A stretch of DNA of 64,000 nt from Pedobacter puniceum (GTDB lineage: Bacteria; Bacteroidota; Bacteroidia; Sphingobacteriales; Sphingobacteriaceae), in the NCBI RefSeq assembly GCF_009674685.1, contig NZ_WKJI01000003.1:372001-436000 (forward strand), read 5' to 3'. Of this stretch, positions 14,317-47,189 are shown in pieces (the first letter of the stretch is position 1; each line of letters opens with the position of its first letter). The position numbers and the translations under genes were made by a program. The notes under the pieces were generated by a model. That model was not told the DNA's origin. It searched no databases and saw nothing but the letters and a program-made list of their open reading frames with translations.

Positions 14317-14382
14317 TAAAAATAGCTAATGCTTTTTTCTAATACTGTGCCCTCGGTTGCATGTACTTATTTGTTTGATGCA
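14317..14382 (-). promoter_or_regulatory. Predicted HTCS operator and promoter (for 14286 and downstream DUF4861)
   Basis: On the minus strand, a distal half-site TGCATCAA (14382-14375) and a proximal half-site TGCAACCG (14361-14354) lie 21 bp apart. The -7 box TATTTTTA (14324-14317) starts 37 bp after the start of the proximal half-site. The ATG is 30 bases further. Same geometry as the other PUL promoters. Confidence 0.65.
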
Positions 14383-14430
14383 ATTTGAGATACCACATAC
14401 AGCTAATAAAAGGCTTAAGACATCTAATTA

Positions 14431-14498
14431 TGAAACATTAAGACTAACATCTGCAACATCCTGACATGATGAAGAGCGTATCTACATGGATATTTGAT
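14431..14498 (+). promoter_or_regulatory. Predicted HTCS operator and promoter (for 14559)
   Basis: Distal half-site TGAAACAT (14431-14438) and proximal TGCAACAT (14452-14459), 21 bp apart. A weaker -7 candidate TATTTGAT (14491-14498) starts 39 bp from the proximal site. With the minus-strand copy it forms a divergent regulatory region (14317-14498). Confidence 0.6.
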
Positions 14499-14558
14499 TT
14501 ATCAATTAGATCCTAAATGTATGGGCATTTTTTGAATGTCTAAATACTATTAAACATA

Positions 14559-16310
14559 ATGAAAAGAATAATTTTTACGCTAAGCCTGCTCTTTACTTGC
14601 GGTACATTATGGGCGCAAGTAATAGATAAATTTATACTAGATATGGTTCATCATAATCCGGGTGAGCCTTTAACACAGTCTGCTTTCAATCATCCAGAAT
14701 TTTTAAAAAAGGAAGGTTATAATGGGCAAGTGATTAACGATTTTACTTTTGCACATGCAGCACTAACTTTTGATAAGTTAAATCCTGATATTTTTCCGCA
14801 AGGCAGTAAAGAAAGAGCATGGGTGAATGATGCCGCTGTAAAAGTTAAAAATTACATCAAAAATGCTCATCAAGCAGGGATTAAAATTTATTACTTCACA
14901 GATATTATCGTTTTACCAAAGAAGTTAATAGCGCTTTATAAAGATGAGATATGCGATAAAAACGGCAAAGTATCTTTTGAAAGAGAAAAAACTATAGAGA
15001 TACACAAAATAATGCTGGATGAGCTTTTTGATACTTTTCCAGATTTAGATGGTTTGGTAATTAGAACCGGAGAAACTTACCTTAACAATGTACCGTATCA
15101 CAGCGGAAATGGACCTATCACCAACGGCGAAGCCAGCCATATTAAGCTACTGCAGCTTTTAAGAGAAGAAGTCTGTGAGAAGCGTAATAAGAAAATATTT
15201 TATAGAACGTGGTCTTTTGGAGGCATGCATGAAGAGCCTAAGTATTATTTAGGAGTTACGGATGCTATAAAACCACATCCAAACCTTGTTTTTTCTATCA
15301 AACACACCAAAGGAGATTACCACCGTACTTTTAGTTTTAACCCAACTTTAGGTATAGGAAATCACCCTCAGATAGTGGAAGTGCAAGCACAAAGAGAGTA
15401 TGAAGGAAAAGGTGCTTATCCAAATTATGTGGCAGAAGGTGTTATCAATGGTTTTGAAGAATATCAAAATATACAAGGTTTAAAATCTTTAGAGCAGCTA
15501 AAGAGAAATAAAAATTTTAAAGGAATATGGACATGGTCTAGAGGTGGTGGTTGGGTTGGTCCTTATATTAAAAATGAGTTTTGGTGTAGGTTAAATGCTT
15601 TTGTTTTAGGTAGGTGGGGTTTAAATCCAACACTTTCAGAAGCGCAAGTATTTAATCAGTTTATGGATGAAGAGGGAATAACTGATGCACCATCGAGGAC
15701 GAATTTTAGAAAACTTAGCTTATTATCAGCGAAAGCGGTATTAAGAGGGCATGCATCCGCCGCTTATCCTTTTGAGCAAGATTGGGTTTGGTGGATGCGA
15801 GATGAATTTTTAAGCGGTATCGATAATCCAAATATAGATAGCCATTTATTTCCATCAGAAGGTTATTTGTACAAAGCATTTTCATCATGGTATAACAAAG
15901 GGCTGTTAATGCAAGTGATTAAAGAAAAACACGATGCAGTAAAACTTTGGGCCGAGATTTACCAGCTCAGTAAAAATATAAATATGGCCAATAAGGAAGA
16001 TCAGGCTTATATCCAAACATCATCTTTATATGGGTTTTTGTTACATCAAATTATTGCCAATGGTTGGGAAGTGATGGCTTTAGGCTTTACTGGGGATAAA
16101 ACCGGTAAATATGATAAAGAGAAGCTAAAAGCTGCTATAAAAAAATATGATGTTGCTTGGCAAAAATATCTGGACTTAAAGAAAACGCATCCAGATTGTG
16201 CCACTTTATATAAACCTTACGCTTTTATCTATCAAAAACCCAGTTACCATGCAGATTTAGGCATGAATGCATCGGTAAATAAATACAGATTACTCTTTAA
16301 AAAACTATAG
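14559..16310 (+). CDS. Secreted putative glycoside hydrolase, GH67 (alpha-glucuronidase)-like
   Basis: A 583-residue protein with a signal peptide ending LWAQ. The first ~340 residues look like a TIM barrel: GIKIYYFTDI, LDGLVIRTGETY (a candidate catalytic Glu), KKIFYRTWSFGG, LVFSIKHTKGDY and FKGIWTWSRGGGWVG. The helical C-terminal part includes NAFVLGRWGLNPTLSEAQVF, recalling the GH67 pattern of FGRLAWDPDLS. GH67 removes glucuronic acid from glycans, but the family assignment is uncertain and it may be a distinct family. It has its own regulon operator and precedes a small membrane ORF and the HTCS gene. Confidence 0.6.
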   Translation: MKRIIFTLSLLFTCGTLWAQVIDKFILDMVHHNPGEPLTQSAFNHPEFLKKEGYNGQVINDFTFAHAALTFDKLNPDIFPQGSKERAWVNDAAVKVKNYIKNAHQAGIKIYYFTDIIVLPKKLIALYKDEICDKNGKVSFEREKTIEIHKIMLDELFDTFPDLDGLVIRTGETYLNNVPYHSGNGPITNGEASHIKLLQLLREEVCEKRNKKIFYRTWSFGGMHEEPKYYLGVTDAIKPHPNLVFSIKHTKGDYHRTFSFNPTLGIGNHPQIVEVQAQREYEGKGAYPNYVAEGVINGFEEYQNIQGLKSLEQLKRNKNFKGIWTWSRGGGWVGPYIKNEFWCRLNAFVLGRWGLNPTLSEAQVFNQFMDEEGITDAPSRTNFRKLSLLSAKAVLRGHASAAYPFEQDWVWWMRDEFLSGIDNPNIDSHLFPSEGYLYKAFSSWYNKGLLMQVIKEKHDAVKLWAEIYQLSKNINMANKEDQAYIQTSSLYGFLLHQIIANGWEVMALGFTGDKTGKYDKEKLKAAIKKYDVAWQKYLDLKKTHPDCATLYKPYAFIYQKPSYHADLGMNASVNKYRLLFKKL

Positions 16311-16443: not shown

Positions 16444-19400
16444 ATGATGCTTGCTAGCAAATGTTTTAGTGGGATATCAATAAGGAAAATATGCGTAACC
16501 ATATTCTTCTTTGGTTTCTTTTTGATAGGTCTATTTAAAACAGCTAGAAGCCAATATCGCGTTACAGAGGCTTCCAATTTAATATCATCTAACCTGCTGT
16601 TTGAAAGGTTTTATAGCAGAGATGGTTTGCCTGATGATAGGATAAGAACCATTTTTCAAGATTCTAGAGGCTTTATTTGGTTAGGAACCATGAATGGCTT
16701 AGCCCGATTTGACGGTTACAATTTTAAAAAGTATTCAAAATCTAAAGATAGCACCAGCATTTGTGGTAATTGGGCTTACGCTATTTGTGAGGATAACAAT
16801 AAAGATATTTGGGTAGGAACTAAACAAGGGCTTAGTCGTTACGATATCAGAACCAACGTTTTTGAGAATTTTTTATACAGTAAAACTAAAAATTCGGTTA
16901 TCTATAACCTTATCAATACTCTTCAATTTGATAATAGTGGGAAACTATGGATAGGTACACCTAAAGGTTTAAGCGTTTATGATGTTACACAAAGGAAGTT
17001 TAAAAACTACAAGAGCTATCCTTTTAACCTCAATATCAGAAAAATTATAAAGTCTTTTGATGATTATTTATGGATAGCCACCCAAGACGGTGTAGTACAT
17101 TACAATACCGCAAACGGAAAATCTAAATTCTTTAAAATAAAAGTTAAACCTAATGCTTATGGCGATAGGTTTTGGAGTTTGTTAGAGGTTGATAAAAACC
17201 TCTATATTACCACTGGCAGAGAAGGTTTATTAAAATTGCCATATAACAGGGTAACAAAGTCTTACGGAACATTTGAGTTTAGCAATAACTTTACAGGAGG
17301 TAGTTTAGCAAATACAGAAATCTTCTCTATTTGTAAATCAAAAACCGGCGATGTTTGGTTAGGAACATCAGATTTGGGATTAGTGAAAATTCAAAACATC
17401 AATAATACTAATCGTAAAATAACTTTTCATCAACATAACTCTTTAAACGACCAAAGTATTAGTAATAACCAAGTTTTTGAGGTTTTTATTGATAAAACAG
17501 AAGTGCTTTGGTGTGGTACAGAAAGGGGTTTAAATAAGTTGAGCTTAAACCTTTTACCTTTTCAATATTATACCTTTACCAATAAAAGTTTAAAAGATAA
17601 TGTAAGAAGCCTGTATACCGAGGATGGTAAATCTATCTGGTTAGGAACCTCTAAAATGGGACTTTTTAATTATAATTTACTTTCTGGTGCAACCAAATAT
17701 TTTAGATTTTCTAATTCTTTCCAAAACGCTAACCGTTCTTTATTGGTTGATGATAACCAAGTTTGGAATGGTAGTTTAGAAGGTGCTTTACAGCTTAATA
17801 AACAAGGCGGTAGTTCTACAAAAGCAATAGATGGGCATGCTGTTTTTGCCATTTTAAAAGATACTAAAGGGAATAAGTGGTTTGGTACTAATAATGGATT
17901 GTATAAAATTACTATTTCTGGAAGCATAATTAATTACTTACCTAGTGCAACTGAAAAAGGAAGCATTAGTTCTGAATTTGTTAGGGCTATTTATGAAGAT
18001 CATAAGGGTAATATTTGGATAGGTTATGAAAATGGTTCTATAGATTATTATAACCCTAAAAAAGATGCTTTTGTAGCTTTACCAGCAGCCCAAAATGGCG
18101 AGAAAATAATTGGAAATACCATTTTTAGCATTATTGAGTATCCTAAAAATACCATTTGGGCAGGTTCAGAATCAGGTTTAAACCGCCTAGTTTTTAATAA
18201 AGATGGCTCTTATCATATAAAATCATATTCAGAGGATGATGGCTTGCCAGATAAATCTGTAAACGGTATCCTAGCAGATAACAAAGGCAATTTATGGATA
18301 AGTACGATTAAAGGATTAATTAAGTTTAATATTCAGAAAGAGCATTTTCAGACTTATTTAAATAACATAAGTTTTAGTTTTAGTAGCTGTTTTAAGTATA
18401 GCGATAATTGTTTCTTATTTGGCGGTTCTGATGGTTTTGTAGTATTCAATCCTAACCTTATCTCATCAAATAAAACAGCACCCCAGGTGGTTTTTTCTGA
18501 TTTTAAGCTCTTTAATAAATCAGTTAATATTAACGAGGAAATTAATGGCGATGTGATTTTAAAAGAATCTATATCAAACACTAAAGAAATTACTTTAGAC
18601 TATTACAATAACCAATTTACTATAGAGTTTGCGGCCTTGCATTATACAAATCCTCAAAACAATAATTATGCTTATAAACTAGAGGGCTTTAATAACAACT
18701 GGACTTTTGTAAATGCAGCAAACAGAAGCGCTACCTATACCAATTTAGATGCTGGTGAATATATTTTTACTGTAAAGGCATCTAACTATTCTGGTGTTTG
18801 GAATGGTACACCTCAAACTTTAAAAATTACCATTTTACCACCACCTTGGAAAACCGTTTGGGCCATTATTATCTACATTATTTTACTTAATGTTTTACTG
18901 TACATTTTTGTTCGTTATTTATTAATACAGTCTAAGCAAAGACAACAAATACATTTTGAGCAAAAAGAAAAAGAGCAACTTAAAAAGCTAAACGATATGA
19001 AAGTGAAGTTTTTTACAGATGTTTCACACGAGTTTAGAACACCACTTTCTTTAATTGTTGGCCCCATAGAAGATATTGTAACTCAAAACAATTTAACAGA
19101 TGAGTTAAAGCATAAGGCAAATCTTATTTATAGAAATAGCAAAAAATTAATGTATTTGATAGATGAGTTGATGACTTTCCAAAAGCTAGAACAAGGAATG
19201 TTGAAACTAAAACTTGTTAATGCAGATATCATTGCTTTTACTCAAGAAATCTATGATAACTTTAGTCATCTTGCACATAAAAGAAATATTGATTTTAGAT
19301 TTATATCATCAGAAAATGAATGTACACTAGACTTTGATCCCGAGAAAATAGAAATCATTCTTAATAACCTGCTTTTTAATGCATTTAAGTTTTCAAAGCA

Positions 19401-20583
19401 AAACGGTCATATATCTATCATTATCAAAACCTTAAAAGCTAAGGAAATCCAAAATTTAGAGAAAACAACTTTTACTGATGATTGGCTAAGCATTGTTGTT
19501 GAAGATGATGGAAAAGGGATTTCTTCAGAAGAATTTAATCATTTGTTTGAGCGCTTCTTCTCAGAAAATACAGTTAAAGGTACTGGTGTAGGTTTATCAT
19601 TAACTAAAAGTTTGGTAGAGCTACATCAAGGTATGATAACCGCAAGCAGTCAACCAAATGTGAGCACTCGTTTTGAAGTTTACTTGCCTGTAAGAAATCA
19701 AGCATCTACAGAAAACAACCATATTTTGGTTTCTGATTATGATATCAAAGCTTTGGTAGAAGAATCTATCATTCAGGATAGCGCAGATAAAGCAGATAGT
19801 ATAAAAGAATATACCCTATTAATTGTTGATGATAACCCAGAAGTTTTAGACTATTTGTTTTTAACTTTTCAGGATAGATACGAAGTGGTTAAGGCCGAAA
19901 ACGGTTCTCAAGCTTTGGCTTTAGCGCAAGAGCTACTGCCAGACATGATTATTAGCGATGTGATGATGCCTGAAATGGATGGCGTTGAGTTTTGTAAGGC
20001 TATTAAATCAAATATTAATACTTGCCACATTCCTTTAATCTTACTAACTGCAAAATCTGCGGTAGAAGACCGTATTACAGGTTATGAAACTGGCGCTGAT
20101 GATTATATCCCTAAACCTTTCCACCCCAATATTTTAAAAACAAGGGTAGATAATCTTATAGAGGCACAACGCAGAATTGTTGAGAAGTTCCAGACAGATG
20201 GTGGTGTTGTAGTACCTAAAAATGTTGTTAAAAACCCACTAGACGAGAAGTTTTTGAATAAAGTTATTGAGAGTATCAAGGCGAACATGAGTAATGAGGA
20301 TTTAAGTGTAGAAGAATTGGGTAGTATGGTAGCCATGAGCAGAAGTAACCTCTTTAGAAAATTGAAAGCTATTACTGGGCAAACGCCTATAGAATTTATT
20401 TACTACATCAGACTAAAATATGCGATGGAGCTTTTGCTAGAGCGTAAGCTCAGCATCTCTGAAATTGCATACGAAGTAGGCTTTAAAAATCCATCATCTT
20501 TTACAAAATCTTTTAAAAAGCAGTTTGGTAAATCGCCAAGAGAATTCTTAAACAACGTGATAGAAAATAGGCAAAAATCTTAG
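16444..20583 (+). CDS. Hybrid two-component system sensor/regulator (HTCS) of the PUL
   Basis: A 1379-residue one-protein signalling system. Order: signal/anchor segment (about 15-37); Reg_prop beta-propeller repeats in the periplasm (about 55-700, recurrent D-x-x-G-x-x-W-(I/L)-G-T motifs); Y_Y_Y domain (about 715-795); transmembrane helix (about 803-828); HisKA with phospho-acceptor H862 (DVSHEFRTP); HATPase (NNLLFNAFKF, DDGKGI, GTGVGLSL); receiver with D1172 (ISDVMMPEMDG); and an AraC-type HTH_18 at the C terminus (about 1280-1375). It senses a glycan fragment in the periplasm and binds DNA directly. AraC domains typically bind direct repeats about 21 bp apart, as found at the PUL promoters. 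Confidence 0.95.
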   Translation: MMLASKCFSGISIRKICVTIFFFGFFLIGLFKTARSQYRVTEASNLISSNLLFERFYSRDGLPDDRIRTIFQDSRGFIWLGTMNGLARFDGYNFKKYSKSKDSTSICGNWAYAICEDNNKDIWVGTKQGLSRYDIRTNVFENFLYSKTKNSVIYNLINTLQFDNSGKLWIGTPKGLSVYDVTQRKFKNYKSYPFNLNIRKIIKSFDDYLWIATQDGVVHYNTANGKSKFFKIKVKPNAYGDRFWSLLEVDKNLYITTGREGLLKLPYNRVTKSYGTFEFSNNFTGGSLANTEIFSICKSKTGDVWLGTSDLGLVKIQNINNTNRKITFHQHNSLNDQSISNNQVFEVFIDKTEVLWCGTERGLNKLSLNLLPFQYYTFTNKSLKDNVRSLYTEDGKSIWLGTSKMGLFNYNLLSGATKYFRFSNSFQNANRSLLVDDNQVWNGSLEGALQLNKQGGSSTKAIDGHAVFAILKDTKGNKWFGTNNGLYKITISGSIINYLPSATEKGSISSEFVRAIYEDHKGNIWIGYENGSIDYYNPKKDAFVALPAAQNGEKIIGNTIFSIIEYPKNTIWAGSESGLNRLVFNKDGSYHIKSYSEDDGLPDKSVNGILADNKGNLWISTIKGLIKFNIQKEHFQTYLNNISFSFSSCFKYSDNCFLFGGSDGFVVFNPNLISSNKTAPQVVFSDFKLFNKSVNINEEINGDVILKESISNTKEITLDYYNNQFTIEFAALHYTNPQNNNYAYKLEGFNNNWTFVNAANRSATYTNLDAGEYIFTVKASNYSGVWNGTPQTLKITILPPPWKTVWAIIIYIILLNVLLYIFVRYLLIQSKQRQQIHFEQKEKEQLKKLNDMKVKFFTDVSHEFRTPLSLIVGPIEDIVTQNNLTDELKHKANLIYRNSKKLMYLIDELMTFQKLEQGMLKLKLVNADIIAFTQEIYDNFSHLAHKRNIDFRFISSENECTLDFDPEKIEIILNNLLFNAFKFSKQNGHISIIIKTLKAKEIQNLEKTTFTDDWLSIVVEDDGKGISSEEFNHLFERFFSENTVKGTGVGLSLTKSLVELHQGMITASSQPNVSTRFEVYLPVRNQASTENNHILVSDYDIKALVEESIIQDSADKADSIKEYTLLIVDDNPEVLDYLFLTFQDRYEVVKAENGSQALALAQELLPDMIISDVMMPEMDGVEFCKAIKSNINTCHIPLILLTAKSAVEDRITGYETGADDYIPKPFHPNILKTRVDNLIEAQRRIVEKFQTDGGVVVPKNVVKNPLDEKFLNKVIESIKANMSNEDLSVEELGSMVAMSRSNLFRKLKAITGQTPIEFIYYIRLKYAMELLLERKLSISEIAYEVGFKNPSSFTKSFKKQFGKSPREFLNNVIENRQKS

Positions 20584-20597
20584 TTTTAGCTTGTTTC

Positions 20598-20665
20598 TGC
20601 ATAATCTCAACCAATATTTGCAACATTTCATGTCTATTGGGTAGTAAAAAACGCCGTTACTTTAC
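20598..20665 (+). promoter_or_regulatory. Predicted HTCS operator and promoter (for 20761 and 23093)
   Basis: Distal half-site TGCATAAT (20598-20605), proximal TGCAACAT (20619-20626), 21 bp apart, and -7 box TACTTTAC (20658-20665) 39 bp from the proximal start. The ATG follows 95 bases later. Confidence 0.65.
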
Positions 20666-20760: not shown

Positions 20761-23073
20761 ATGATACGTACTAAGCTAAAATTTACCTTTGCCTTATGGC
20801 TTATATGTTTACAGCCAGCAATAACGGCAATTGCTCAGCATGTTAATTCTTTTGAAGGTTTTTTGGTTAAGAATAAAATCAGCTTACAGGCCAGAATAAA
20901 TCAGTACAATCCGCAACGTTATAATTTATTAATTCATCAGCAGCAGTTTTCTGTAAAAGAGGGAGTTAGTGTACAGCAAGTAAAAAGCTCAAAATGGGAA
21001 ATTAAAGCGTCTTTTAAAGCTGTTGAAGATGATAAAAGCGCACAAGAATATATTTTAACTTTTAAATGTATTGAAGGCGCTTTAACCGATGCTAGCTTAT
21101 CAGCAACCATTGCTATTAACCATTGGGATGCTAAAAATTATGTGTTATTACCGGCAGCAGCCTACAATGGAAACAAATATACTTCAAGAAAACTACGCTA
21201 TTCTCCTAAGTTATATGATGTAAAAGATATTGGCCCCAATATCCCTATCATTATTAATGATGTACCTACATTAAATGAAGCCGACGGTGTTTCTCGTATA
21301 CAAGAAAGAAGCGGTAGCTTAAGTACGCCAGCAGTAGGTTATGTAGCGCATCAGCAACATAAAGGTTTATGGATGCTTACTCATCAAGGTAATCAATTAG
21401 GAGATTATGGTATTGATGTAGAAGAGAGCAGAGATAGAACAAAAGCTTATATCACCATCACATCGCCCGTAGTGCGTGAGCAATTTTTATATAAAATTTG
21501 CGATAGCAGAGTGCCAAGTTGGGATGAACCAAAAAACTTTAAAAAAGGAGATGAAATAAGTATTAGCTTCAAGTTGTATGATTTTGAGGCGCAACAGCCT
21601 CAGGATTTATTTGATAAGTTAACGAGTATTAGAAAATCATACATCCAAGATACACAACAGAAAGATGTTTTACCTTTTTCTGCTTGTTTCACCACGCTTG
21701 AAGAAAAGTTTAATAGGTACAATTTTGTTCCAGAGCATGGCTATTATTCGGTTGGTTTAAGAGAAAACTATCTTCAAGACTGGCAAATAGGCTGGACAGG
21801 TGGTATGATATCAACCTACCCGCTTTTGGTTAAAGGAAATGCCCAAACAAAGGCAAACGTTATTAGAAATTTCGATTGGTTATTTGCTAACGGTATTAGT
21901 CCATCTGGTTTTTATTGGGATGCTGGCGAAAAAGGTACTATTTGGTATGGTGGCGATATCAGAAATCCGCAGTCTAAAAACTGGCATTTAATACGTAAAA
22001 GTGGCGATGCAGTTTGGTACATCTTAAAACAGTTTTCTCAGATGGAGAAAATGGGAATCACTGTTAAAGAAGAATGGAAAGCTAAAAATCGTTTGGTATG
22101 TAATGCTTTTGTGAATTTATGGAATCAAAATCGGCAGTTAGGGCAGTTTATAGATTCGCAAACAGGTAAAATAAGTGTTGGAGGTTCTAGTAGCGGAGCT
22201 ATCGTTCCTGCTGCTTTAGCATTAGCATCCGTATATTATCAAGAACCAAAATATTTAAAGGTTGCACAAGAAATTGGCGATTATTTAAACGAGAATTTCA
22301 CAAAAAAAGGAATTAGCTGTGGCGGCCCGGGTGATGCTTTACAAAGCTTTGATTCTGAATCTTCTTATGCTTTAGTAGAATCTTACACAGCATTATATGA
22401 GTATAGTAAAGACAAAAAGTGGTTACAAATTGCTCAGAATGCTGCCAACCAGTTTGCTAGTTGGGTAGTTTCTTACAATTATCAGTTTCCTGATACTTCG
22501 GCTTATCATAAACTCAATATCAAAACTACAGGTAGTGTTTATGCAAATATTCAGAATAAGCATACAGCCCCAAATATTTGTACTTACTCTGGTTTAGCTT
22601 TATTAAAGCTTTATCAGTACACACAAAAGCCATTTTATCTTGATTTGTTGAAAGACATAGCGCATGGTAACACGCAATATTTAGCACATCCGCAAAATCC
22701 TATACCACAAACTCCAAATGGTTTCATGAGCGAGCGGGTAAACATGACAGATTGGGAAGGTAAAGGCTCTATTGGCTATGTATTGCCCCTAACCACTTGG
22801 GCAGAAACATCATTAATGCTTACCGCGATAGAAATTCCTGGTGTTTATATAGAACCTCAAAAAGAAGTTTTTACAGCTTTTGATAACATTCAGGTAAAGA
22901 AGCTTAAAAGTAATCAAAAGCAATTGGTATTAAGGTTTAGCAATACCACCAAATTAGAAGCTGATGTAAACATTGTATCTGCCATAGCCGCAAAACAAGG
23001 TTCAAAAGAGCAGCAACAGCTTATAAGTTTAGCTCCTGGAGCTTGCAAAGATTTGATTTTTAAAAAGAAATAA
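20761..23073 (+). CDS. Secreted protein with N-terminal beta domain and alpha/alpha-barrel, putative glycan-active enzyme
   Basis: A 770-residue protein with a signal peptide (about 1-25, ending AIAQ). Residues about 30-280 are beta-rich. From about 300 the protein is helical with repeated helix pairs (VGLRENYLQDWQIGWTGGM, FYWDAGEKGTIWYGGD, ALALASVYYQEPKYLKVAQEIGDYL, SYALVESYTALYEYSKDKKWLQIAQNAA), typical of an (alpha/alpha)6 toroid as in lyases and GH88/105/127-like hydrolases. Residues near CGGPGDALQSFDSES may line the active site. I cannot assign a CAZy family. It is co-transcribed with the GH105 gene 19 bases downstream and sits behind a regulon operator. Confidence 0.6.
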   Translation: MIRTKLKFTFALWLICLQPAITAIAQHVNSFEGFLVKNKISLQARINQYNPQRYNLLIHQQQFSVKEGVSVQQVKSSKWEIKASFKAVEDDKSAQEYILTFKCIEGALTDASLSATIAINHWDAKNYVLLPAAAYNGNKYTSRKLRYSPKLYDVKDIGPNIPIIINDVPTLNEADGVSRIQERSGSLSTPAVGYVAHQQHKGLWMLTHQGNQLGDYGIDVEESRDRTKAYITITSPVVREQFLYKICDSRVPSWDEPKNFKKGDEISISFKLYDFEAQQPQDLFDKLTSIRKSYIQDTQQKDVLPFSACFTTLEEKFNRYNFVPEHGYYSVGLRENYLQDWQIGWTGGMISTYPLLVKGNAQTKANVIRNFDWLFANGISPSGFYWDAGEKGTIWYGGDIRNPQSKNWHLIRKSGDAVWYILKQFSQMEKMGITVKEEWKAKNRLVCNAFVNLWNQNRQLGQFIDSQTGKISVGGSSSGAIVPAALALASVYYQEPKYLKVAQEIGDYLNENFTKKGISCGGPGDALQSFDSESSYALVESYTALYEYSKDKKWLQIAQNAANQFASWVVSYNYQFPDTSAYHKLNIKTTGSVYANIQNKHTAPNICTYSGLALLKLYQYTQKPFYLDLLKDIAHGNTQYLAHPQNPIPQTPNGFMSERVNMTDWEGKGSIGYVLPLTTWAETSLMLTAIEIPGVYIEPQKEVFTAFDNIQVKKLKSNQKQLVLRFSNTTKLEADVNIVSAIAAKQGSKEQQQLISLAPGACKDLIFKKK

Positions 23074-23092
23074 AAGATAAATACAAGAAGAT

Positions 23093-24907: not shown

Positions 24908-24929
24908 AACCTTATTTTAAGGCTGAAAT

Positions 24930-24995
24930 TGAATAATTGGGGCATGAATTTGCAACATGGGGAGCTTTTTTAAAGCATAAATGATTCTATTTTAG
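24930..24995 (+). promoter_or_regulatory. Predicted HTCS operator and promoter (for susC-like 25081)
   Basis: Proximal half-site TGCAACAT (24951-24958) is exact; the distal half-site TGAATAAT (24930-24937) is weaker (5 of 8). The -7 box TATTTTAG (24988-24995) starts 37 bp from the proximal site. The leader is 85 bases. Confidence 0.65.
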
Positions 24996-25080
24996 ACTTT
25001 GATTTGGTAGCTATACAACTTGCTACCACACCATATAAAACCAAATAAACTAAATTATAAACTAAACCAAATTATTAACG

Positions 25081-35570: not shown

Positions 35571-35613
35571 GAAATAGCCCTAAGCCAACATAAATGTTTG
35601 TCAAAATATTTTT

Positions 35614-38193: not shown

Positions 38194-38210
38194 CATATAA
38201 ACCCATATTC

Positions 38211-40382
38211 ATGAAAAAGTATTTTCTTTTATTTCTGCTTATTAGTATTGGTGCTCAAGTATTTGCTCAGAAAAGTACCTCTAAAATACAATACATAAAG
38301 TCGTTTGATAACGTAAATCACCCACAAATAGCTTACTGGTTTTTTAATAAAGATATGCTGGTAGAGCAAGCATGGAAAAGAAAAATAGATAGCCTTGCAG
38401 CCAATAGCAATTATACTATGGTGTTTTTGTCTTCTCGTCATGGTGTTGATTTTTTCGACCCTGCTAAGATGAAGCCAATTTTCTCAAATTTTGTAAAATA
38501 TGCACATGAAAAAGGCTTAAAAGTAGGTTTACAACTTTGGGGAACTAATAAAAATACATCAGAAGAAAGTAGCGAGCGGGTAATTATTGAAAACGAGGTG
38601 CTACTAGACCAAGACGGAAAAGCAAGTTTAACCAATACTGCTAAACACGTACGCAGCCAAAGTGGAAAGCCTTTTAAAGCTGCATTGTTGAAAGCTTATA
38701 TGTTCAAGAAAACGGCTTCTGGTTTTTATCAGCCTGGTACTTTGCTAGATATTACCAATTTATGTAAGGTAACATCAGCCACAGAAAATGCGATTAGCTT
38801 ACAAATACAAAATGATAAAAAGTATAGCGGTTACTCGGTTTATGTCATCACACAGCATTATTACAGGGTATCGTCTAACCACTCTCAAGAGGCTATCAAT
38901 AAGTTTGTAGAAGTGATGCAAGCCTATAAAGACATTCCCTTTGATGGTATTGGGTTAGATGAGTATACCAATCTTAAATTATTTGCTACTTGGGAGCTAC
39001 AAAAGGCTAATGCTAAATTAAGAGAGCGATTATACAGTGTAGATATGGCAAAAAAATATAAAGAGCTTTATCGTAATGATATAGAACGTACTTTTTTTGA
39101 TATGCGTTATGCACCATTAAATCAACCAGAAATAAGAATAAAAGCCATCAATACCTACATGGATGTAATGCGTAAAGGCTCTTTAAATGTAGAAACCGCT
39201 GTGTATGATTATGCCAAAAAGATTTTTGGTCCAGAAACCTTTGTAGGCTTACACAACAGTCATCATAACCATTTAGATGGTGATGAAGTATGGCAAACTG
39301 GTTTAAATTGGTGGAATGTGAAGCGAGATTACGGTCATACCGATGAGGAAACCAGCCTGCCTATACAAATGGGAGTATTTTATGGCTACAAAAAAAATAT
39401 GTTGTACAATATGTACTATCATAAAAAAATAGAGAAAATAGAAGAAAAAGCGTATACCGATATTCAATATAACATTCGTACACATTACCATGCCGTTAAT
39501 GATGTACAAAATTGGGGTGTAAGTGTTGAGCAACCTTTGGCACTTCAAAAAATAAACCCGGTAGAACATAGTGCCCGATTAATGAACCACTTTAATGCTC
39601 CTTTACCAGAAGTTAAGTTATTGGTAGTTTTTGGAAGAGAATCGCTGTTAAATTGGTATCCAGATACAACTAAAAGAGGTATTTGTGATATCAACGATAA
39701 GTTAAAAATAGAAGAAAAAGCAAAGAAAATTTGGGAAGCCGGGTTTAAAAATGCTTTAGTACCTACTGATGTTATTAATGATGCTCGTTTAACCATCAAC
39801 AGCAATGGTAAAGCTGTTTATAACGGTTATACTTTTGATGCTGTGGTTTTCTTATATCCAGAGTATGCACAAGAAAAAACCATAAAGTTTTTAGAGCAAT
39901 ACGTAAGTAAAGGCGGTAAATTAATGGTTGAAGGCAACTTAACAAAAGATTTTTTTGGTAAAGATGCTTCTGCCCGATGGAATAAAATTATAGCTCATAA
40001 AACAGTTATTAAAGGTTTAGATATTAATAAAATAGAAGCTTTGGGTATTCTTAAAGATAAGAATGAAAGTGCCTGTAAAATGTTAGACGGTAGCTGGCTA
40101 TTTTCTGATTATGAGAATTTTACACTTAATCGTTTAAGTAGCTTTAAGCAAAATATAGAGGGTAGTTTATTTGAAGGCTCTTTTAAAGGATATGCAGCTA
40201 TTAAAACATCCAAAAGTCAAATAGAAAAATTTGTGGCAACCGCTTTTCAGGAGCTAAAAGTAAATGGACAAGTAGTTTTAGCTTTAGATAAACCTGCTGA
40301 TATTGTTTTAACTTACCAAAACAATCAATACAACATGCAAATTGCTGGCGAGGATGTAAAAGTATTGGTTAATAAACTCTAA
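38211..40382 (+). CDS. Secreted TIM-barrel protein with GH42-type middle domain, unassigned glycoside hydrolase
   Basis: A 723-residue exported protein (signal peptide ending VFAQ). Residues about 30-440 look like a clan A TIM barrel (YTMVFLSSRHGVDFF, EKGLKVGLQLWGTN, IPFDGIGLDEYTNLK with a candidate acid/base Glu, FVGLHNSHHNHLDGDEVW). Residues about 460-600 resemble the flavodoxin-like trimerisation domain of GH42 (KLLVVFGRES, FKNALVPTDVI, FDAVVFLYPEYAQEKTIKFLEQYVSKGGKLMVEG). The C terminus is a small beta domain. I cannot place it in a numbered family. It lies between two esterase-lyase pairs and 17 bases after copy 1 of the lyase. Confidence 0.6.
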   Translation: MKKYFLLFLLISIGAQVFAQKSTSKIQYIKSFDNVNHPQIAYWFFNKDMLVEQAWKRKIDSLAANSNYTMVFLSSRHGVDFFDPAKMKPIFSNFVKYAHEKGLKVGLQLWGTNKNTSEESSERVIIENEVLLDQDGKASLTNTAKHVRSQSGKPFKAALLKAYMFKKTASGFYQPGTLLDITNLCKVTSATENAISLQIQNDKKYSGYSVYVITQHYYRVSSNHSQEAINKFVEVMQAYKDIPFDGIGLDEYTNLKLFATWELQKANAKLRERLYSVDMAKKYKELYRNDIERTFFDMRYAPLNQPEIRIKAINTYMDVMRKGSLNVETAVYDYAKKIFGPETFVGLHNSHHNHLDGDEVWQTGLNWWNVKRDYGHTDEETSLPIQMGVFYGYKKNMLYNMYYHKKIEKIEEKAYTDIQYNIRTHYHAVNDVQNWGVSVEQPLALQKINPVEHSARLMNHFNAPLPEVKLLVVFGRESLLNWYPDTTKRGICDINDKLKIEEKAKKIWEAGFKNALVPTDVINDARLTINSNGKAVYNGYTFDAVVFLYPEYAQEKTIKFLEQYVSKGGKLMVEGNLTKDFFGKDASARWNKIIAHKTVIKGLDINKIEALGILKDKNESACKMLDGSWLFSDYENFTLNRLSSFKQNIEGSLFEGSFKGYAAIKTSKSQIEKFVATAFQELKVNGQVVLALDKPADIVLTYQNNQYNMQIAGEDVKVLVNKL

Positions 40383-40387
40383 AGCTT

Positions 40388-41917
40388 ATGAGATTTTTAA
40401 AAGCATTATCCTTTTGCATCATTGTAGGCTATACCCATGTAAATGCCACTGTAAAATTAAATACTTTATTTACCGATAACATGGTGCTACAAAGAAATAC
40501 AGAGCTACGTATTTGGGGTTGGGCCAGTAAGGGTGAAAAAGTTATACTAAAGTTTAACGGCCAACAGCAAGAAACCATCGCTAAAGATGGCAAATGGATG
40601 TTACGTTTAAACCCTATGAAAGAAAATTTAGAGCCTCAAGATTTGATAGTAATGGGTACTAATACCATCACCATAAAGAATGTTCTTATTGGCGATGTTT
40701 GGATTTGCGCTGGCCAAAGCAATATGGAGTGGGGCTTGTCAAAATCTACCAACGGTTTAAAAGCTATAGAAGAAAGTAATAACCCTTTGCTCAGGATTTT
40801 TAATGTTCCGCATAACCCGCAAATGCAGCCTGTAGAGCAGGTAAATGCAAAATGGGTAATCAGCCAGCCATCAACAACCAAAAATATCTCTGCAGTAGGT
40901 TATTGGTTTTTAAGTAATTTACAAAAGGATCTTAAAATACCTATTGGTTTTATAAATGTTTCTTACGGAGGTACTCCTATAGAATCTTGGTTAAGTAAAG
41001 AAGCGCTAAAAAGTATGCCTTTTCAGGATAAATATATGGACGCTGATGTTATGAAAGCCGAGTATGATGAGAAGTTAGAAAAAATTAAACCTTTGATTCA
41101 GAAATATGAACTCTTGAAAGATTCTGCTCGTTTAGCAAACCTTCCTACACCACCACGTCCGGCAGAAATTCCTACCGAGTATAAAGGTACAACCACCATT
41201 TATAACGGAGAAATATTCCCGCTTTTACCATTAGCTGTTAAAGGAATTGCATGGTATCAAGGAGAAAATAATGCTTATACAAACAGAGCTCATACTTATG
41301 AAGCCTTACTTACTAAAATGATTACCTTATGGCGAGCAGATTTTCAGCAGCCGCAACTACCTTTTATCATCATTCAATTACCCGGACATAAAAAAGAACA
41401 AGAGCAACCAACCGAGCATAGTGGCATTGCTATGTTGCGTGAAGCACAATTAAAAGTCTCTCAAAAAGTACCTTATACGTGTTTAGTAACTACCTCAGAT
41501 TGTGGAGATCTTGATGTTCATTACACTTTAAAAGAACCTGTTGGTTATAGGGTTTACCAAGCGGCTTTAAATTTAGCTTATGCTAAGAAAACCGTTTTTA
41601 CAGGCCCCTTATATCAATCATATAAAGTTTTAAGAAATAGTATCTTGATAGATTTTACGCATAAAGGTGGCGGCTTAACTATTAACGCTAAAGCTGATGA
41701 AAAACTGTATGGTTTTGCCATTGCTGGAGAGGATAAGAAATTTTATTGGGCCAATGCAGTCATCAAAAATAATAAAGTAGAGGTAAGCAGCCCGCAAGTA
41801 GCTAAACCTGTTGCAGTAAGATACGGTTGGGCCGATTTTTCTAAGAAATGGAACCTATTTAATAAAGAAGGTTATCCGGCTTCAACTTTTAGAACAGATT
41901 ACTGGGAACTTAAATAA
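40388..41917 (+). CDS. SGNH-type acetylesterase, sialate O-acetylesterase family (copy 2)
   Basis: A 509-residue exported protein (signal peptide to about 20). Catalytic S111 in AGQSNMEW, the WYQGENNAY block, and D376/H378 in DLDVHYTLKEPVG. It is a paralogue of 34032-35570 with the same domain order; both have an additional insert rich in A/P/R and K (around 245-265) before the second block. Two different acetylesterases suggest two acetylation sites on the target. It starts 5 bases after the upstream TIM-barrel gene's stop and precedes lyase copy 2. Confidence 0.88.
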   Translation: MRFLKALSFCIIVGYTHVNATVKLNTLFTDNMVLQRNTELRIWGWASKGEKVILKFNGQQQETIAKDGKWMLRLNPMKENLEPQDLIVMGTNTITIKNVLIGDVWICAGQSNMEWGLSKSTNGLKAIEESNNPLLRIFNVPHNPQMQPVEQVNAKWVISQPSTTKNISAVGYWFLSNLQKDLKIPIGFINVSYGGTPIESWLSKEALKSMPFQDKYMDADVMKAEYDEKLEKIKPLIQKYELLKDSARLANLPTPPRPAEIPTEYKGTTTIYNGEIFPLLPLAVKGIAWYQGENNAYTNRAHTYEALLTKMITLWRADFQQPQLPFIIIQLPGHKKEQEQPTEHSGIAMLREAQLKVSQKVPYTCLVTTSDCGDLDVHYTLKEPVGYRVYQAALNLAYAKKTVFTGPLYQSYKVLRNSILIDFTHKGGGLTINAKADEKLYGFAIAGEDKKFYWANAVIKNNKVEVSSPQVAKPVAVRYGWADFSKKWNLFNKEGYPASTFRTDYWELK

Positions 41918-41960
41918 ATAAAGCCAAACTTTATATCCTTGTAATTGACCTTAATCTTTA

Positions 41961-44495
41961 ATGAATTTTAAGATGATATCCTCTTTCAATATAAAAAGAC
42001 TTTTATCGGTACTTATTGCTTTAAACGCTGGTTTTTGTGTCGCTCAAACAAATTCAAATTCAAAAACCACTCAAGAACATCCGGTTTATAACCGTATGGA
42101 TTTTGCTAAATCTAAACTCTCAAAAGTTCCTAAGGCAGGTATTCACCCTAGGGTTTTGTTTAGCCCTTCTGATATTCCTGATATCCAAAACAGATTAAAG
42201 AATACAGAAGTTGGCAAAGCTGTAAATGCTTATATGCTTGCTGAGTTATCTCAAACAACCAGAAATCCTAAAGTGCCTATTGGGCAGGCCGTTATAGCTT
42301 TAAGCAAGCAAGATTTTGAAAGTTTTAAACGCTTAGAAGCATCTTTTTTAATTGATAATCCTGCTTTTACCGATAAGGTTTTTAGAAATAGCATTATTGC
42401 TATGCTACGTGTTGATGCATTGGAATGTTTACTTTCTAATAACCAAGAACGTGGCAAAATTGTAGCAGCTGCTATTGCCAGTTGGGCTAAAAATTTAGAG
42501 CCTGAAGTAGAAATATGGCGAAAAAGCTTGTACCCAAACGATGCAAGTAGATGGGGAAGCTGGCATGCTTTAGGTAGTTATGCTTTATTTGCCACACACC
42601 ATTTAGGAGATGCTTATGATGTAGCTTTTAATTTTATGAGTACCGAGCAGAGAACCCAAACCAGAAGAGTAATAGCTAAAATTACCAATGGAGCTTACAC
42701 TTTTGCCAATAGATTACCTGCTCATTTACGTAGCTGGAATTGGGTTAATTATAGCAATTGTTTACCAACACTTGCCTTGGCTATAGAGGGAGAAGAAGGG
42801 TACGATGCTAAAGTTTATCAAGCAGGTGTAGAAATCATGAGAGATTATATCAACGCAAATTATTCTCTTAAAGGAAGCAGTACAGAGTCTTTAGGTTATA
42901 CCAGCGGAGGCTGGAAAGATGGGGTGCCAGCAGTATTGGCAATGGCAAGAAGGGGAGATAATTTAATGTTGATGCCTAAATATCAGGCCATAAAAAATTG
43001 GCAATTGCATGTGATGCTTCCGCAAGAGGGCGAATGGCTTAATCATGGAGATTTAGGTAATTATCCTCCCGGTTTTCATGAAATACAACTCATGAAATAC
43101 TTTTATCCATCAAACGCTATTATAGATTATAACTATCAACAAGTAACCAAAAAAATGCTTGCTAAGCCTGCTGAAATAAAAGAAATGTTATTTGAAGCTG
43201 TTATTTTGGCTTGCGATGTTTCTAAAACTACTAATGGTAAATGGATAGATTATCAACAAGGCAAAGCGCTTCAACAAACTTTAGATTTTTTTGATGAAGA
43301 AAGAGGGAATTTAGTGAGCAGAAATAGCTGGGATAAAAATGCAGTACAATTAAATTTCGAGTGTAGGCCTGATACCTATTATGCTGGTCATGAACATGCT
43401 GACAGAGGCAATTTTAATATTGCTGCCTTAGGACGATTGTGGACTCCAGAAGGTATGCGTTCGCCAGAAGGTAAATACCATAATATCATTACTATTGATG
43501 GTCGAGGACAAGGTTATTTCCCTACACCAGGTAAATGGTTGGGTTACTACCAATCTGCTGATGCTGTTTTTGGTTCTTGCGACACTAAATATGCTTATGA
43601 TTGGTTTTGGCCAAAATCTATCGTGAGTGTAGATACCAATAGTACAAAATTTAAATCTCCACGTTTTGCTTTATATAGAGCAGAAGCGGTAGACTATCAG
43701 CAAAAGTATGTGATGGAAAGAGACCCGCATCCAAACGTAAAGAATAAATTTTCTGGGGTAGACTTTGGCGATTCTGGTATGTGGGATGAAGACCCTTGGC
43801 CTGTTCGTATTGCTTATAATCCGGTTCAATATGCTTACAGAACCGCGGGCTTGGTAAGAGGTAAACATCCTTATGTGGTGGTTTTTGATGATATTAAAAA
43901 AGATAATCAAGAGCATTTGTACGAGTGGAATATGATGTTAGCGGCAGATTTAGAAATCGTGAGTATCAAAGAAGAAGATGCTGCACAAAATTTCTTGGGC
44001 CCACGTGTTCTAGAAAGAACAAATAATTTTTATACCGATATTATTTTAGGTAGCGAACTCATTCCTAACAAAGAAGGTGTCTATCAGCCTGCAAAAGGCG
44101 AACCTTTATTGTTGGTTAGGGTATTACAAAAAAACAATCCTGCTGATATTAGAAATTACGATACCCGCCCCAATCCACGTTTAGAAGTAATAGAGAAGAA
44201 AGACACATTTTCTAGTCCGGGTGTTCATTTAGGCCCAGGCGGAAGAACTTTTGGTACAGCAAAACGCTTGGTTATTCCTAGTAGAGCTGCTTCGCCAGAT
44301 TTTAAAGTGATGATTTATCCATTTAGATACGGTATAGATCCATTACCACAAACAAATTTTAGCGATACTGCCCAGCTGAAAATAAAAATAGGCGAGGAGC
44401 AAGATATCTATCAACTTAAAAAGGATAGTACAACAGGAAAAACAAGCTTTGTTTTACAAAAATCAGGTTCAAATTCATCTTTAAAGGTTGATTAA
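41961..44495 (+). CDS. Heparinase II/III-family polysaccharide lyase (copy 2)
   Basis: An 844-residue exported protein (signal peptide ending CVAQ; a slightly later start, MISSFN, is also possible). It has the same build as copy 1: a toroid with HLRSWNWVNYSNCLPTLAL and a sandwich domain with H477/H479 in GHEHADRGNFNIAALGR and TIDGRGQGYFPTPGKWLGYY. Differences around the catalytic Asn/His segment (RSWNWVNY versus RRWNHIAS) suggest a different cleavage site or substrate. It is the last gene of the operon, ending before the hairpin at 44592-44623. Confidence 0.83.
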   Translation: MNFKMISSFNIKRLLSVLIALNAGFCVAQTNSNSKTTQEHPVYNRMDFAKSKLSKVPKAGIHPRVLFSPSDIPDIQNRLKNTEVGKAVNAYMLAELSQTTRNPKVPIGQAVIALSKQDFESFKRLEASFLIDNPAFTDKVFRNSIIAMLRVDALECLLSNNQERGKIVAAAIASWAKNLEPEVEIWRKSLYPNDASRWGSWHALGSYALFATHHLGDAYDVAFNFMSTEQRTQTRRVIAKITNGAYTFANRLPAHLRSWNWVNYSNCLPTLALAIEGEEGYDAKVYQAGVEIMRDYINANYSLKGSSTESLGYTSGGWKDGVPAVLAMARRGDNLMLMPKYQAIKNWQLHVMLPQEGEWLNHGDLGNYPPGFHEIQLMKYFYPSNAIIDYNYQQVTKKMLAKPAEIKEMLFEAVILACDVSKTTNGKWIDYQQGKALQQTLDFFDEERGNLVSRNSWDKNAVQLNFECRPDTYYAGHEHADRGNFNIAALGRLWTPEGMRSPEGKYHNIITIDGRGQGYFPTPGKWLGYYQSADAVFGSCDTKYAYDWFWPKSIVSVDTNSTKFKSPRFALYRAEAVDYQQKYVMERDPHPNVKNKFSGVDFGDSGMWDEDPWPVRIAYNPVQYAYRTAGLVRGKHPYVVVFDDIKKDNQEHLYEWNMMLAADLEIVSIKEEDAAQNFLGPRVLERTNNFYTDIILGSELIPNKEGVYQPAKGEPLLLVRVLQKNNPADIRNYDTRPNPRLEVIEKKDTFSSPGVHLGPGGRTFGTAKRLVIPSRAASPDFKVMIYPFRYGIDPLPQTNFSDTAQLKIKIGEEQDIYQLKKDSTTGKTSFVLQKSGSNSSLKVD

Positions 44496-44742: not shown

Positions 44743-46908
44743 CTACTTTTTGATGAATTTTTGAGAGAGGGATTCTTTACCCTTATAAACAACTAGGGTA
44801 TAAATGCCGGTATTTAATTCGCTAATATTAATATTGCTAATTAATTCGTTTGCTGATACAGATTTGTTATAAACCATTTTGCCATCTAAAGCATAAATAG
44901 CAACAGAAGCAGCTGTGTTTCCTTCTGGAATGCTTACGGTTAAGTTATCTTCTGCTGGGTTAGGATAAACAGTTAATAAGCTGCTATTTTTCTCAACCGC
45001 GATTACATTACTAAACTGAAACTTACCATCTTGGTCTACTTGTCTTAGTTTATAATATAAAACACCACTTTTTTGAGTGTTTACCTCAAAGTTGTAATTG
45101 TGTATACCTGCAGTATTTTTAGCAACTACAGTACCTACGATACTAAAGTTTTTGCCATCTGTACTTTCTTGTATTTCAAAGTTTTTGGTGTTTACTTCGC
45201 TAGTGGTAATCCATTTTAATTCTACTTGTTTGTTAAACTCGTTAAGTTTACCAGTAAAAGAAAGTAGGTTTAAAGGTAATACGCTAATATCTTGAGAAAT
45301 GGTATAATTTCCAGTCAGGTCTATAACGCCTACAGGTGAAGTTGTTGGAGCTAAGGTTACTAAATATGGGTCTGCAGCAACTGGCGTAGTAGCATTCTGG
45401 TTTTGGCTAACTGAAGCTGTTCCAGTACCAGTTACAGTAGATGTAGTAACATTAGCATCAGTAGCCCAAGTGCCAGAAGTAAATTTTTGTAAAGCTAAAG
45501 TTTGCGTTCTGTTAAAACTACTACCTTCGTCGTTAGCAGTCCATCCTAACCTTAATAAACCAATTACTGATGTAGGGTTAGCAGCTTCTATCGTAAATCT
45601 GTTCTTTAATGTATGCGCATTTGTAATAGGCGAGGTAAAAGTTGTGAAACCAGTGAAATTATCAACTACTCCTACAGTAAAGTCACCTGTTGTGCCTGTA
45701 TTTCTAATAATCACAGGACTATAACCTGTTGGAGTACCAATAGGGAAAACCCAATCACTTGTACCACTTGTTAAGCTTCTTTTTAGTTTTCCGGTTCTGT
45801 TTGGACCAGAAATATTGAAATAAGCACCTGTTAAAGCTAGTGCATTAGCTCCAAACCCAACATTGGTGATTTTTGTAGCATCTACAACTCCACCATCTAA
45901 TATATTTAAAGAAACTCTACTAAAGTTAGTGCCAGTGTCATTATTTCTAGTTGAAAATCCACCGCTACCCATAATATAGGTTCCTGATACATTTAAAGTA
46001 ACAGTATTTATAGTATTCGTTGCTAGATTTATATTGTCACTTTGTGGAAATGGTATAAAACCTTGTGTAGCTGTGCCTCTTGAAAGGTCTAACGTACCAT
46101 TTATATTGTATGTGTAAGAACCACCAGCAAGAAGTGTATTACCACTTGTATTGAATGAAGACCCTGAGCCATTATTTGCTATCCTAATGGTAGAATTAAT
46201 GTTCATGATATAATTTTCATTAATAGATTGACCATTAGAAGCATTTACAGGTTGTAAACGATTTAAAGTTAATGTTCTAGCTCCATTTGAAGTTAGACCT
46301 ACCAAAACAATAGGTTTATTTAAGTTAAGGGTCATAGTTTTGGTGTTAGCAGTACCAGCCCCAACCGCAGAAATAGCAGCAACTTTAGTACTTCCTGTAC
46401 CAGAAAAAGTAAATGTAGAAACTGCTGGAAACCCTGTGCCATAAGTGTTATTTATTTGTACATCTAATAAATCTGCATTAGTTAATGCAACATCAACACT
46501 TGTACCTGAACCAATAGTTCCATTATTAATTAAAAAAGATTCTGTAACGCCATTTGGTAATGATCTGCCGATAGTTAAAACATTGTATGTAGTATTCCCA
46601 TTTCTTAAAGTCCCACCTGCGTTAACATAAAGATTTTCACAAGAAGCAGCTGCGGTTATGTCAACTGTAGTACCACTACTTATGAAAACATTACTCCCAA
46701 AACCAGGAGTAGAAGTAGCAGGATTTGCTCCGCCTTCAATTCTCCATGTACTAGCAGTACTCCAAGAACCATTAGTAATAGAAACAAAATCCCCTGTTGC
46801 GGGCGTAGGTATAGTCTGCCCTAAAGCAGTAAAACTAATGCTCATCATGAGCAGCATAGCCATGAAGTTTAACTTCATGAATTTTAATTTACGAGTAGAA
46901 ATTTTCAT
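44743..46908 (-). CDS. T9SS cargo protein, beta-rich repeats, long paralogue of 13303-14286
   Basis: A 721-residue secreted protein. The start at 46908 (or MKLNFM, 10 codons later) leads a signal peptide ending TALGQ. Residues about 35-380 are N/T/S/G-rich beta repeats homologous to the 13303-14286 protein (GGSYTYNINGTLDLS, SLNILDGGVVDATK). Residues about 380-530 form further beta domains, then a fibronectin-like segment (LNLLSFTGKLNEFNKQVELKWIT, residues about 545-640). The last ~77 residues form a type A T9SS sorting domain (LLTVYPNPAEDNL, GIYTLVVYKGKESLSQKFIKK). It is exported through T9SS to the cell surface or medium. Function unknown; regulon operator upstream at 47002-47046. Confidence 0.78.
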   Translation of the reverse strand: MKISTRKLKFMKLNFMAMLLMMSISFTALGQTIPTPATGDFVSITNGSWSTASTWRIEGGANPATSTPGFGSNVFISSGTTVDITAAASCENLYVNAGGTLRNGNTTYNVLTIGRSLPNGVTESFLINNGTIGSGTSVDVALTNADLLDVQINNTYGTGFPAVSTFTFSGTGSTKVAAISAVGAGTANTKTMTLNLNKPIVLVGLTSNGARTLTLNRLQPVNASNGQSINENYIMNINSTIRIANNGSGSSFNTSGNTLLAGGSYTYNINGTLDLSRGTATQGFIPFPQSDNINLATNTINTVTLNVSGTYIMGSGGFSTRNNDTGTNFSRVSLNILDGGVVDATKITNVGFGANALALTGAYFNISGPNRTGKLKRSLTSGTSDWVFPIGTPTGYSPVIIRNTGTTGDFTVGVVDNFTGFTTFTSPITNAHTLKNRFTIEAANPTSVIGLLRLGWTANDEGSSFNRTQTLALQKFTSGTWATDANVTTSTVTGTGTASVSQNQNATTPVAADPYLVTLAPTTSPVGVIDLTGNYTISQDISVLPLNLLSFTGKLNEFNKQVELKWITTSEVNTKNFEIQESTDGKNFSIVGTVVAKNTAGIHNYNFEVNTQKSGVLYYKLRQVDQDGKFQFSNVIAVEKNSSLLTVYPNPAEDNLTVSIPEGNTAASVAIYALDGKMVYNKSVSANELISNINISELNTGIYTLVVYKGKESLSQKFIKK

Positions 46909-47001
46909 AATTGGTTATTTAAAATGATTAAAAATCTGGTTAATACTTTTGCTGAATAAAATTTTCTGAAAAAGACTTTTGCTTTGTTTAATTGGTTATT
47001 G

Positions 47002-47046
47002 TAAAGGTAGGATGAGAATTATTTTTCGTATTTGCCAGATGTTGCA
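47002..47046 (-). promoter_or_regulatory. Predicted HTCS operator and promoter (for 46908)
   Basis: Minus strand: proximal half-site TGCAACAT (47046-47039), -7 box TACCTTTA (47009-47002) exactly 37 bp on. The expected distal half-site (47067-47060) is not recognisable (3 of 8). The leader is 93 bases. Confidence 0.55.
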
Positions 47047-47123
47047 TCTACTTGTTTCAACTCGTCAAAACAAGCTGTTTAAATCTTTTTGATTTATTTC
47101 TGCCTTTTTTAATCTAACATAAT

Positions 47124-47189
47124 TGCAACTTTTGAATAATCAATTGCAACATGTAAGCATTTGGTCTATAGCAGCTTCAATTACCTTAG
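47124..47189 (+). promoter_or_regulatory. Predicted HTCS operator and promoter (for 47208)
   Basis: Distal half-site TGCAACTT (47124-47131) and proximal TGCAACAT (47145-47152), 21 bp apart; -7 box TACCTTAG (47182-47189), 37 bp from the proximal start. The ATG is only 18 bases after the box. Divergent from the 47002-47046 promoter. Confidence 0.7.

Follow-up and report, generated by a model that had tools for sequence, protein, structure and literature searches.

The PUL and Its Encoded Sensor-Regulator

The PUL described here encodes an HTCS, and it raises the question of which DNA words that protein may read to control transcription units on both strands. The window is the whole 64,000-nt stretch of DNA that was analyzed, from a genome of 3.9 Mb in a Bacteroidota family to which Mucilaginibacter and Desertivirga also belong, and the PUL spans about positions 12000–50711 of it. 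The following members are referred to below.

16444–20583, + strand: HTCS, 1379 aa, the proposed regulator, with Pfam matches over the curated cut-offs
23093: GH88-type hydrolase
25081: SusC
28440: SusD
30358: DUF5017 protein
31552: β-helix enzyme

Two SASA esterases, one DUF4861 protein, and two T9SS-tailed proteins are further members. The HTCS combines in a single protein a Reg_prop propeller, Y_Y_Y, HisKA, HATPase_c, Response_reg, and an AraC-type HTH_18 domain (Pfam), and both SusC and SusD, also recognized by Pfam, are encoded with it; these are the features by which an HTCS is identified. The HTH_18 match confirms the AraC-type domain that the first-pass annotation had assigned to the protein. 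A CHIP motif was found in the receiver. The presumed recognition helices, which we placed from knowledge of the AraC family and not from structure, read SRSNLFRK and FKNPSSFTKSFKKQ.

Searches of Pfam, NCBIfam, PHROG, and PDB sequences gave no match for the 583-aa protein encoded at 14559–16310, which has a signal-peptide-like start. Its relatives in seven other family genomes are 61–67% identical, and in the three same-family orthologous loci its gene lies directly upstream of the HTCS. Four large PUL proteins (20761–23073, 35614–38193, 38211–40382, and 41961–44495) had no Pfam or PDB sequence match, the last having only a weak heparinase-type match in NCBIfam, and all four are candidates for undescribed enzyme families. 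The β-helix enzyme (31552–33795) matched a GH141 insertion domain below the cutoff and has relatives (37–59%) in Chitinophagaceae, Dyadobacter, Paenibacillus, Saccharibacillus, and others. PDB sequence searches with seven PUL proteins found nothing except two sorting-tail matches for 44743–46908.

Seven Probable Operator-Promoters Share One Geometry

The first-pass annotation proposed that seven intergenic sites make up the regulon of this HTCS, and all seven proximal sites are present where it placed them (14361, 14452, 20619, 24951, 33874, 47046, and 47145; for the minus-strand sites 14361 and 47046, this is the highest forward coordinate of the site). The operator-promoters to which they belong are laid out as follows.

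14317–14383, − strand: operator-promoter 1; distal half-site 14375–14383, proximal half-site 14354–14362, −7 box 14317–14324; upstream of 13303–14286 and 12014–13288; its left-out score outranks all background
14430–14496, + strand: operator-promoter 2; distal 14430–14438, proximal 14451–14459, box GATATTTG at 14489–14496; upstream of 14559–16310, and the same gene in Mucilaginibacter aquatilis (G177) has a counterpart site
20597–20665, + strand: operator-promoter 3; distal 20597–20605, proximal 20618–20626, box at 39 bp, 20658–20665; upstream of 20761–24907; the weakest site, with a counterpart before a related gene in genome G505
24929–24995, + strand: operator-promoter 4; distal 24929–24937, proximal 24950–24958, box 24988–24995; upstream of SusC 25081
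33852–33918, + strand: operator-promoter 5; distal 33852–33860, proximal 33873–33881, box 33911–33918; upstream of 34032–44495
47002–47068, − strand: operator-promoter 6; poor distal 47060–47068 (3/8), proximal 47039–47047, box 47002–47009; upstream of 44743–46908; kept in genome G013 and missed by the pair model
47123–47189, + strand: operator-promoter 7; distal 47123–47131, proximal 47144–47152, box 47182–47189; upstream of 47208–50711; kept in G013

The half-site consensus is TTGCAACAT. Two half-sites form a direct-repeat pair with starts 21 bp apart, and the proximal one begins 37 bp upstream of the Bacteroidetes −7 box. In the order given above, the distal octamer matches TGCAACAT at 6, 7, 6, 5, 7, 3, and 7 of 8 positions. 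These matches agree with the earlier claim of a second half-site exactly 21 bp upstream in six cases, and a 21-bp pair model recovers every site but 47046. The spacing first reported for the box, 37 bp in five sites and 39 bp in two, stood for the five; site 14452 has a better box, GATATTTG, at 37 bp, so that this distance holds in six of the seven. The box of site 20619 lies at 38–39 bp. TGCAACAT occurs at one more intergenic place, 5407 (+), where both the distal half-site and the box are absent. Within the window, no site precedes the HTCS gene (133-bp gap) or the β-helix gene 31552 (162-bp gap); unlike 31552, the β-helix genes of three relatives do have a site.

The Sites Stand Apart within the Genome

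With leave-one-out scoring, five of the seven sites outrank all 447,810 background positions of the same genome (both strands of the window flanks and of five further HTCS loci), while site 14452 is reached by 2 and site 20619 by 8 of these positions. A 72-position, sequence-only profile built from the seven sites (R1) was run over the whole genome, with 150 of 4018 first-look candidates scored. Up to an E value of 10 there were 35 matches; the seven sites scored 31.0–43.2 bits and the next match 20.8 bits, a lead that arises partly by construction because the seven are the training set. Twelve of the 13 next matches examined overlap open frames 100 or more codons long; 15 weaker rows fall outside this count. 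A strict genome search for TGCAAC words 14–16 bases apart returned two places, both inside the PUL, which is evidence for operator-promoters 5 and 7. Equal frequency at unrelated promoters, which the first-pass annotation had named as grounds for giving up the pattern, was seen neither in the genome-wide profile search nor in the control loci described below. A chance origin of the sites was rejected on the leave-one-out ranks, the genome-wide search, and the control loci.

The sites could also represent a promoter element common to PULs, or to the genus, and not tied to one HTCS, and the −7 box part is indeed general across the phylum. Genome matches outside the PUL are weak, however, and lie over open frames in the 12 of 13 cases just mentioned, and ten control loci, five other HTCS loci of this genome among them, held 0 pairs. 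A general element was rejected on these grounds and strikes us as scarcely credible.

Applied to 21 other genomes, R1 matched 14 times at E ≤ 0.05, in 11 of the genomes. Only two matches were strong, both in G013, and of the 12 weak ones nine lay over an open frame and three (L112, L113, and L115) did not. At E 0.05 there was no match in the two site-bearing Desertivirga genomes introduced below (G023 and G047) and one weak match elsewhere in G177; that R1 misses the sites of all three indicates that a model of 72 positions is too stringent to recover distant sites.

G013 is a close relative in which the interior of the PUL is missing (G013:C1:2150001-2209800; L117–L119). The flanking proteins are 91–100% identical and the DUF4861 protein 88%. 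The T9SS gene of 1167 aa is followed in close company by a short relative of the 721-aa T9SS gene (48% over 289 aa) and a truncated DUF4861 gene, the three being neighbors, and two operator-promoters are kept without the HTCS.

The 21-bp Pair Accompanies Orthologous HTCSs

Orthologs of the HTCS are rare. Of 301 genomes of the family, 4 have one, as do 2 of 395 genomes of the phylum (E up to 1e-235, own genome included, two candidates scored per genome), and the best match in 17 other genus members is 36% identical. A first contig scan with P0001 found no relative. The orthologs, with their identity to the window HTCS, are as follows.

G177, Mucilaginibacter aquatilis: 52%
G023, Desertivirga xinjiangensis, and G047, D. 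arenae: 49%
L131, a Bacteroidia MAG: 48% over 577 residues, N-terminal part only
L130, Dyadobacter koreensis: 45%
G505: 41%

The window HTCS and those of G023, G047, and G177 have SRS[NH]LFRK and FKNPSSFT.SFKKQ in common, and the Dyadobacter and G505 proteins have nearly the same words at both presumed recognition helices. Both helices are largely kept in the five orthologs with a readable DNA-binding domain; five other HTCSs of the window genome differ at many positions of both.

Intergenic DNA was scanned with a half-site model built from the window alone, the box being unused, for pairs of at least 15 bits at spacings of 10 to 44 bp. The seven related loci were G177, G047, G023, L130, L131, and G505, each with an orthologous HTCS, and L126, which has no HTCS in the DNA examined and was added after its pair had been seen. 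The ten control loci contain other HTCSs (the five own loci among them) or the 583-aa gene only. At 21 bp, the related loci (33.4 kb intergenic) held 14 pairs (13 without L126, and 12 distinct places, since G047 8354 and L130 22076 overlap stronger pairs) versus none in the controls (51.2 kb), where the best pair reached 14.0 bits. Each of the other spacings gave at most 4 pairs in the related loci, and 60 shuffles, permuting single bases inside each intergenic stretch, gave a mean of 0.15 pairs and a maximum of 1. None of the six loci with a 41–52% identical HTCS is without an intergenic 21-bp pair that reaches 15 bits. Two sites stand outside the 14, G047 21736 because it lies at the mechanical start of a β-helix frame and G023 26187 because it lacks a distal half.

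The sites in the related loci precede SusC-type, β-helix, and 583-aa-protein genes. Counterparts of operator-promoter 4 occur before SusC-type genes in G177, G047, G023, L130, L131, and G505, and the best example outside the window, in Dyadobacter, is TTGCAACAT with CTGCAACAT, 21 bp apart, before a SusC gene. With the window matrix that includes the box, sites were found before the 583-aa-protein, β-helix, and SusC genes in G177, before SusC and β-helix genes in G047, and before a β-helix and, more weakly, a SusC-type gene in G023; no background position scores as high as six of these seven, and G023 26187 is reached by 10. The Dyadobacter HTCS gene is itself preceded by a weaker pair (16.7 bits with a pooled model, below threshold with the window-only model). 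Set against the absence of a site before the HTCS gene in the window, this pair suggests that self-activation may vary.

Fourteen further loci (L127–L129, L132, L133, L135–L137, L139, and L141–L145) were scanned with the same model. Pairs of at least 15 bits were found in L127 (17.4), in L129 (16.0, the L126 site again), and in L135 and L141 (15.6, the same place in Paenibacillus DNA). The remaining ten had none, L128, L132, and L133 included, which have a β-helix relative and no HTCS in the DNA examined. Three more entries, L134, L138, and L140, duplicate the G047, G177, and G023 loci, respectively. As the Paenibacillus pair and the L127 pair illustrate, a threshold of 15 bits falls short of perfect specificity; in neither is the best box at 37 bp.

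What can be read from the DNA itself is the words, how they are spaced and placed, and that they co-occur with the HTCS. Because the tag recurs before related clusters with the same sensor-regulator, it is very probably the landing site of that regulator, of a type predicted earlier for gut Bacteroides, and its assignment to HTCS 16444 in the first-pass annotation is supported in that the motif follows the HTCS (6/6 loci versus 0/10 controls). Binding by another regulator of the neighborhood was considered as well, since an IclR-type protein (5419–6147) and a cyclic-nucleotide-binding protein (61098–61661) are both encoded in the window. Yet no 21-bp pair precedes the catabolic cluster (6244–11963) that adjoins the IclR gene, the pair accompanies orthologous HTCSs into other genera, and direct repeats of 21 bp agree with HTCS precedent, so that we hold either of these proteins to be a highly improbable owner of the sites. 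With strong confidence, we propose that the seven sites are a tandem operator of HTCS 16444–20583, from which it would activate at a position immediately 5′ of where a −33 element is lacking.

The −7 Box Lies at 37 bp in Most Sites

The consensus of the −7 box is TAnnTTTG. It was scanned for at offsets 20 to 55, with no positional prior, in 23 sites: the seven of the window, seven found by the matrix with the box in the score, and nine picked by hand from the pair list of the pooled model, from which L130 22076 and weaker rows were excluded. With ties shared, the best box was at 37 bp in 15.5 of the 23 sites and at 38 bp in 3.4. This total includes the seven sites of G177, G047, and G023, whose first selection used a score with the box in it and which therefore do not count as independent support for 37 bp. 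The mean box score at 37 bp was 4.48 of 6 versus 1.78 (SD 0.52) over offsets 10–59. In the strictest set, eight pairs found with the window-only model (L130, L131, L126, and G505), the best box was at 37 bp alone in four, at 37 bp in a tie in two, at 38 bp in one, and at 35 bp in one.

Across the 23 sites, no column from +12 to +36 rises above 0.35 bits, which indicates that there is no conserved −33 element. As a sequence feature, the combination of a fixed distance with a core that lacks a good −33/−35 element is that of a class II activator-dependent promoter. It is conceivable that the sites belong to the HTCS but serve repression, or are used through one half-site, with no fixed contact to RNA polymerase; in favor of this, 47046 and G023 26187 have no distal half and several distal halves are weak. 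The recurring 37 bp and the absent −33 element nevertheless fit activation, and characterized HTCSs are described as activators of their PULs. Repression or single-half use therefore appears very unlikely, and activation from a tandem operator is the reading that we retain.

In the upstream regions of 21 other SusC genes, taken with the regulator of each promoter unassigned, the combination of 21 bp and 37 bp did not stand out (z 1.0). A phylum-wide rule, in which a 21-bp pair stands at a rigid 37 bp from a lone −7 box and the HTCS replaces the −33 contact, is a tentative extension that we regard as doubtful. If it were true, any 21-bp repeat placed 37 bp from the box could be used to read the operators of hundreds of uncharacterized HTCSs from one genome. 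Of the whole finding, we would least have expected the coupling at a fixed 37 bp to recur across families.

Relation to Known Systems

In E. coli, AraC occupies direct-repeat half-sites 21 bp apart at araI1–araI2, just upstream of the core promoter, in class II activation. The present operator resembles this arrangement in having a direct repeat 21 bp apart next to the core promoter. AraC differs from the HTCS in being a soluble one-component regulator, and both its site sequence and its core promoter are different.

For 16 of the 36 HTCSs of Bacteroides thetaiotaomicron, direct repeats were predicted whose mean distance is 21 bp, with spacings such as 12+9, 16+5, and 14+6 bp (Ravcheev et al., 2013; PMC3878776). 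The motifs, from 11 Bacteroides genomes, lie before PUL operons of the co-encoded HTCS, and the pectin-directed HTCS_Rgu-1 and Rgu-2 are among the regulators. A direct repeat of 21 bp is thus an established design among the HTCSs of Bacteroides. The present sites have the same two-site direct repeat of about 21 bp (in the related loci and in six of the seven window sites) and conservation of the same type, the comparison being one of design and not of letters. Whereas those motifs are from Bacteroides, the present sites occur in Mucilaginibacter, Desertivirga, Dyadobacter, and relatives, and the excerpted text contains no fixed distance to a −7 box.

Response-regulator fragments of the HTCSs BT4124 and BT4663 shifted susCD promoters in EMSA, and the CHIP motif was linked to inhibition of DNA binding before phosphorylation, through contact between receiver and DBD (PMC11253607, as excerpted). 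The receiver of HTCS 16444 has the CHIP motif in common with these proteins, which are other regulators with other sites; binding was measured there, whereas it is inferred for HTCS 16444.

Among the open-licence papers listed for TTGCAACAT and TGCAACAT, there was none on a PUL regulator. The matches listed in the literature searches as a whole showed neither this operator sequence nor its conservation beyond the family, nor a coupling fixed at 37 bp. The earlier statement that the specific motif is undescribed was not contradicted by these matches, published logos lying outside the comparison.

Other Features of the Window

Positions 5419–11963 encode an IclR-type regulator, an MFS transporter, a rhaM mutarotase, an altronate/galactarate-dehydratase-type protein, two short-chain dehydrogenases, and one FAA hydrolase, which together resemble a non-phosphorylating pathway of the L-fucose or L-rhamnose type adjoining the PUL.

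The word AACCAA recurs on the sense strand of 5′ leaders, at 20761, 25081, 34032, 44743 (−), 47208, and other genes, and is present in leaders of related loci too. Upstream of 82 genes of the window genome it occurs 29 times in sense and 6 times in antisense orientation, in 19 of the 82. An inverted repeat, TGGTAGC...GCTACCA, follows closely on the −7 box within the leader of SusC (25005–25028) and is possibly an RNA hairpin. TGCAAC words on opposite strands, at 55252–55255 and 59160–59169, lie in gaps beside ribonucleotide reductase genes, and no relation of these words to the HTCS pair was seen.

A Model for Activation and Its Implications

We envisage that the periplasmic propeller would bind its oligosaccharide, that the kinase would then phosphorylate the fused receiver, and that phosphorylation would free the AraC-type domain. 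Both half-sites, separated by two helix turns, could then be occupied by two such domains on the same face of the DNA. A constant distance of 37 bp would bring the proximal subunit within reach of RNA polymerase, directly upstream of where the −33 element is missing, and the PUL units on both strands would be switched on in the manner of a class II activator. Phosphorylation-dependent binding and the polymerase contact are drawn in this model by analogy with other HTCSs and the AraC family.

One HTCS outside Bacteroides thereby gains a concrete, testable candidate operator and regulon. A pair of presumed recognition helices is tied to a DNA word across several genera, and the promoter geometry is made measurable. 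Should that geometry prove general, it would aid the decoding of PUL regulation and the construction of glycan-inducible promoters in environmental Bacteroidota.
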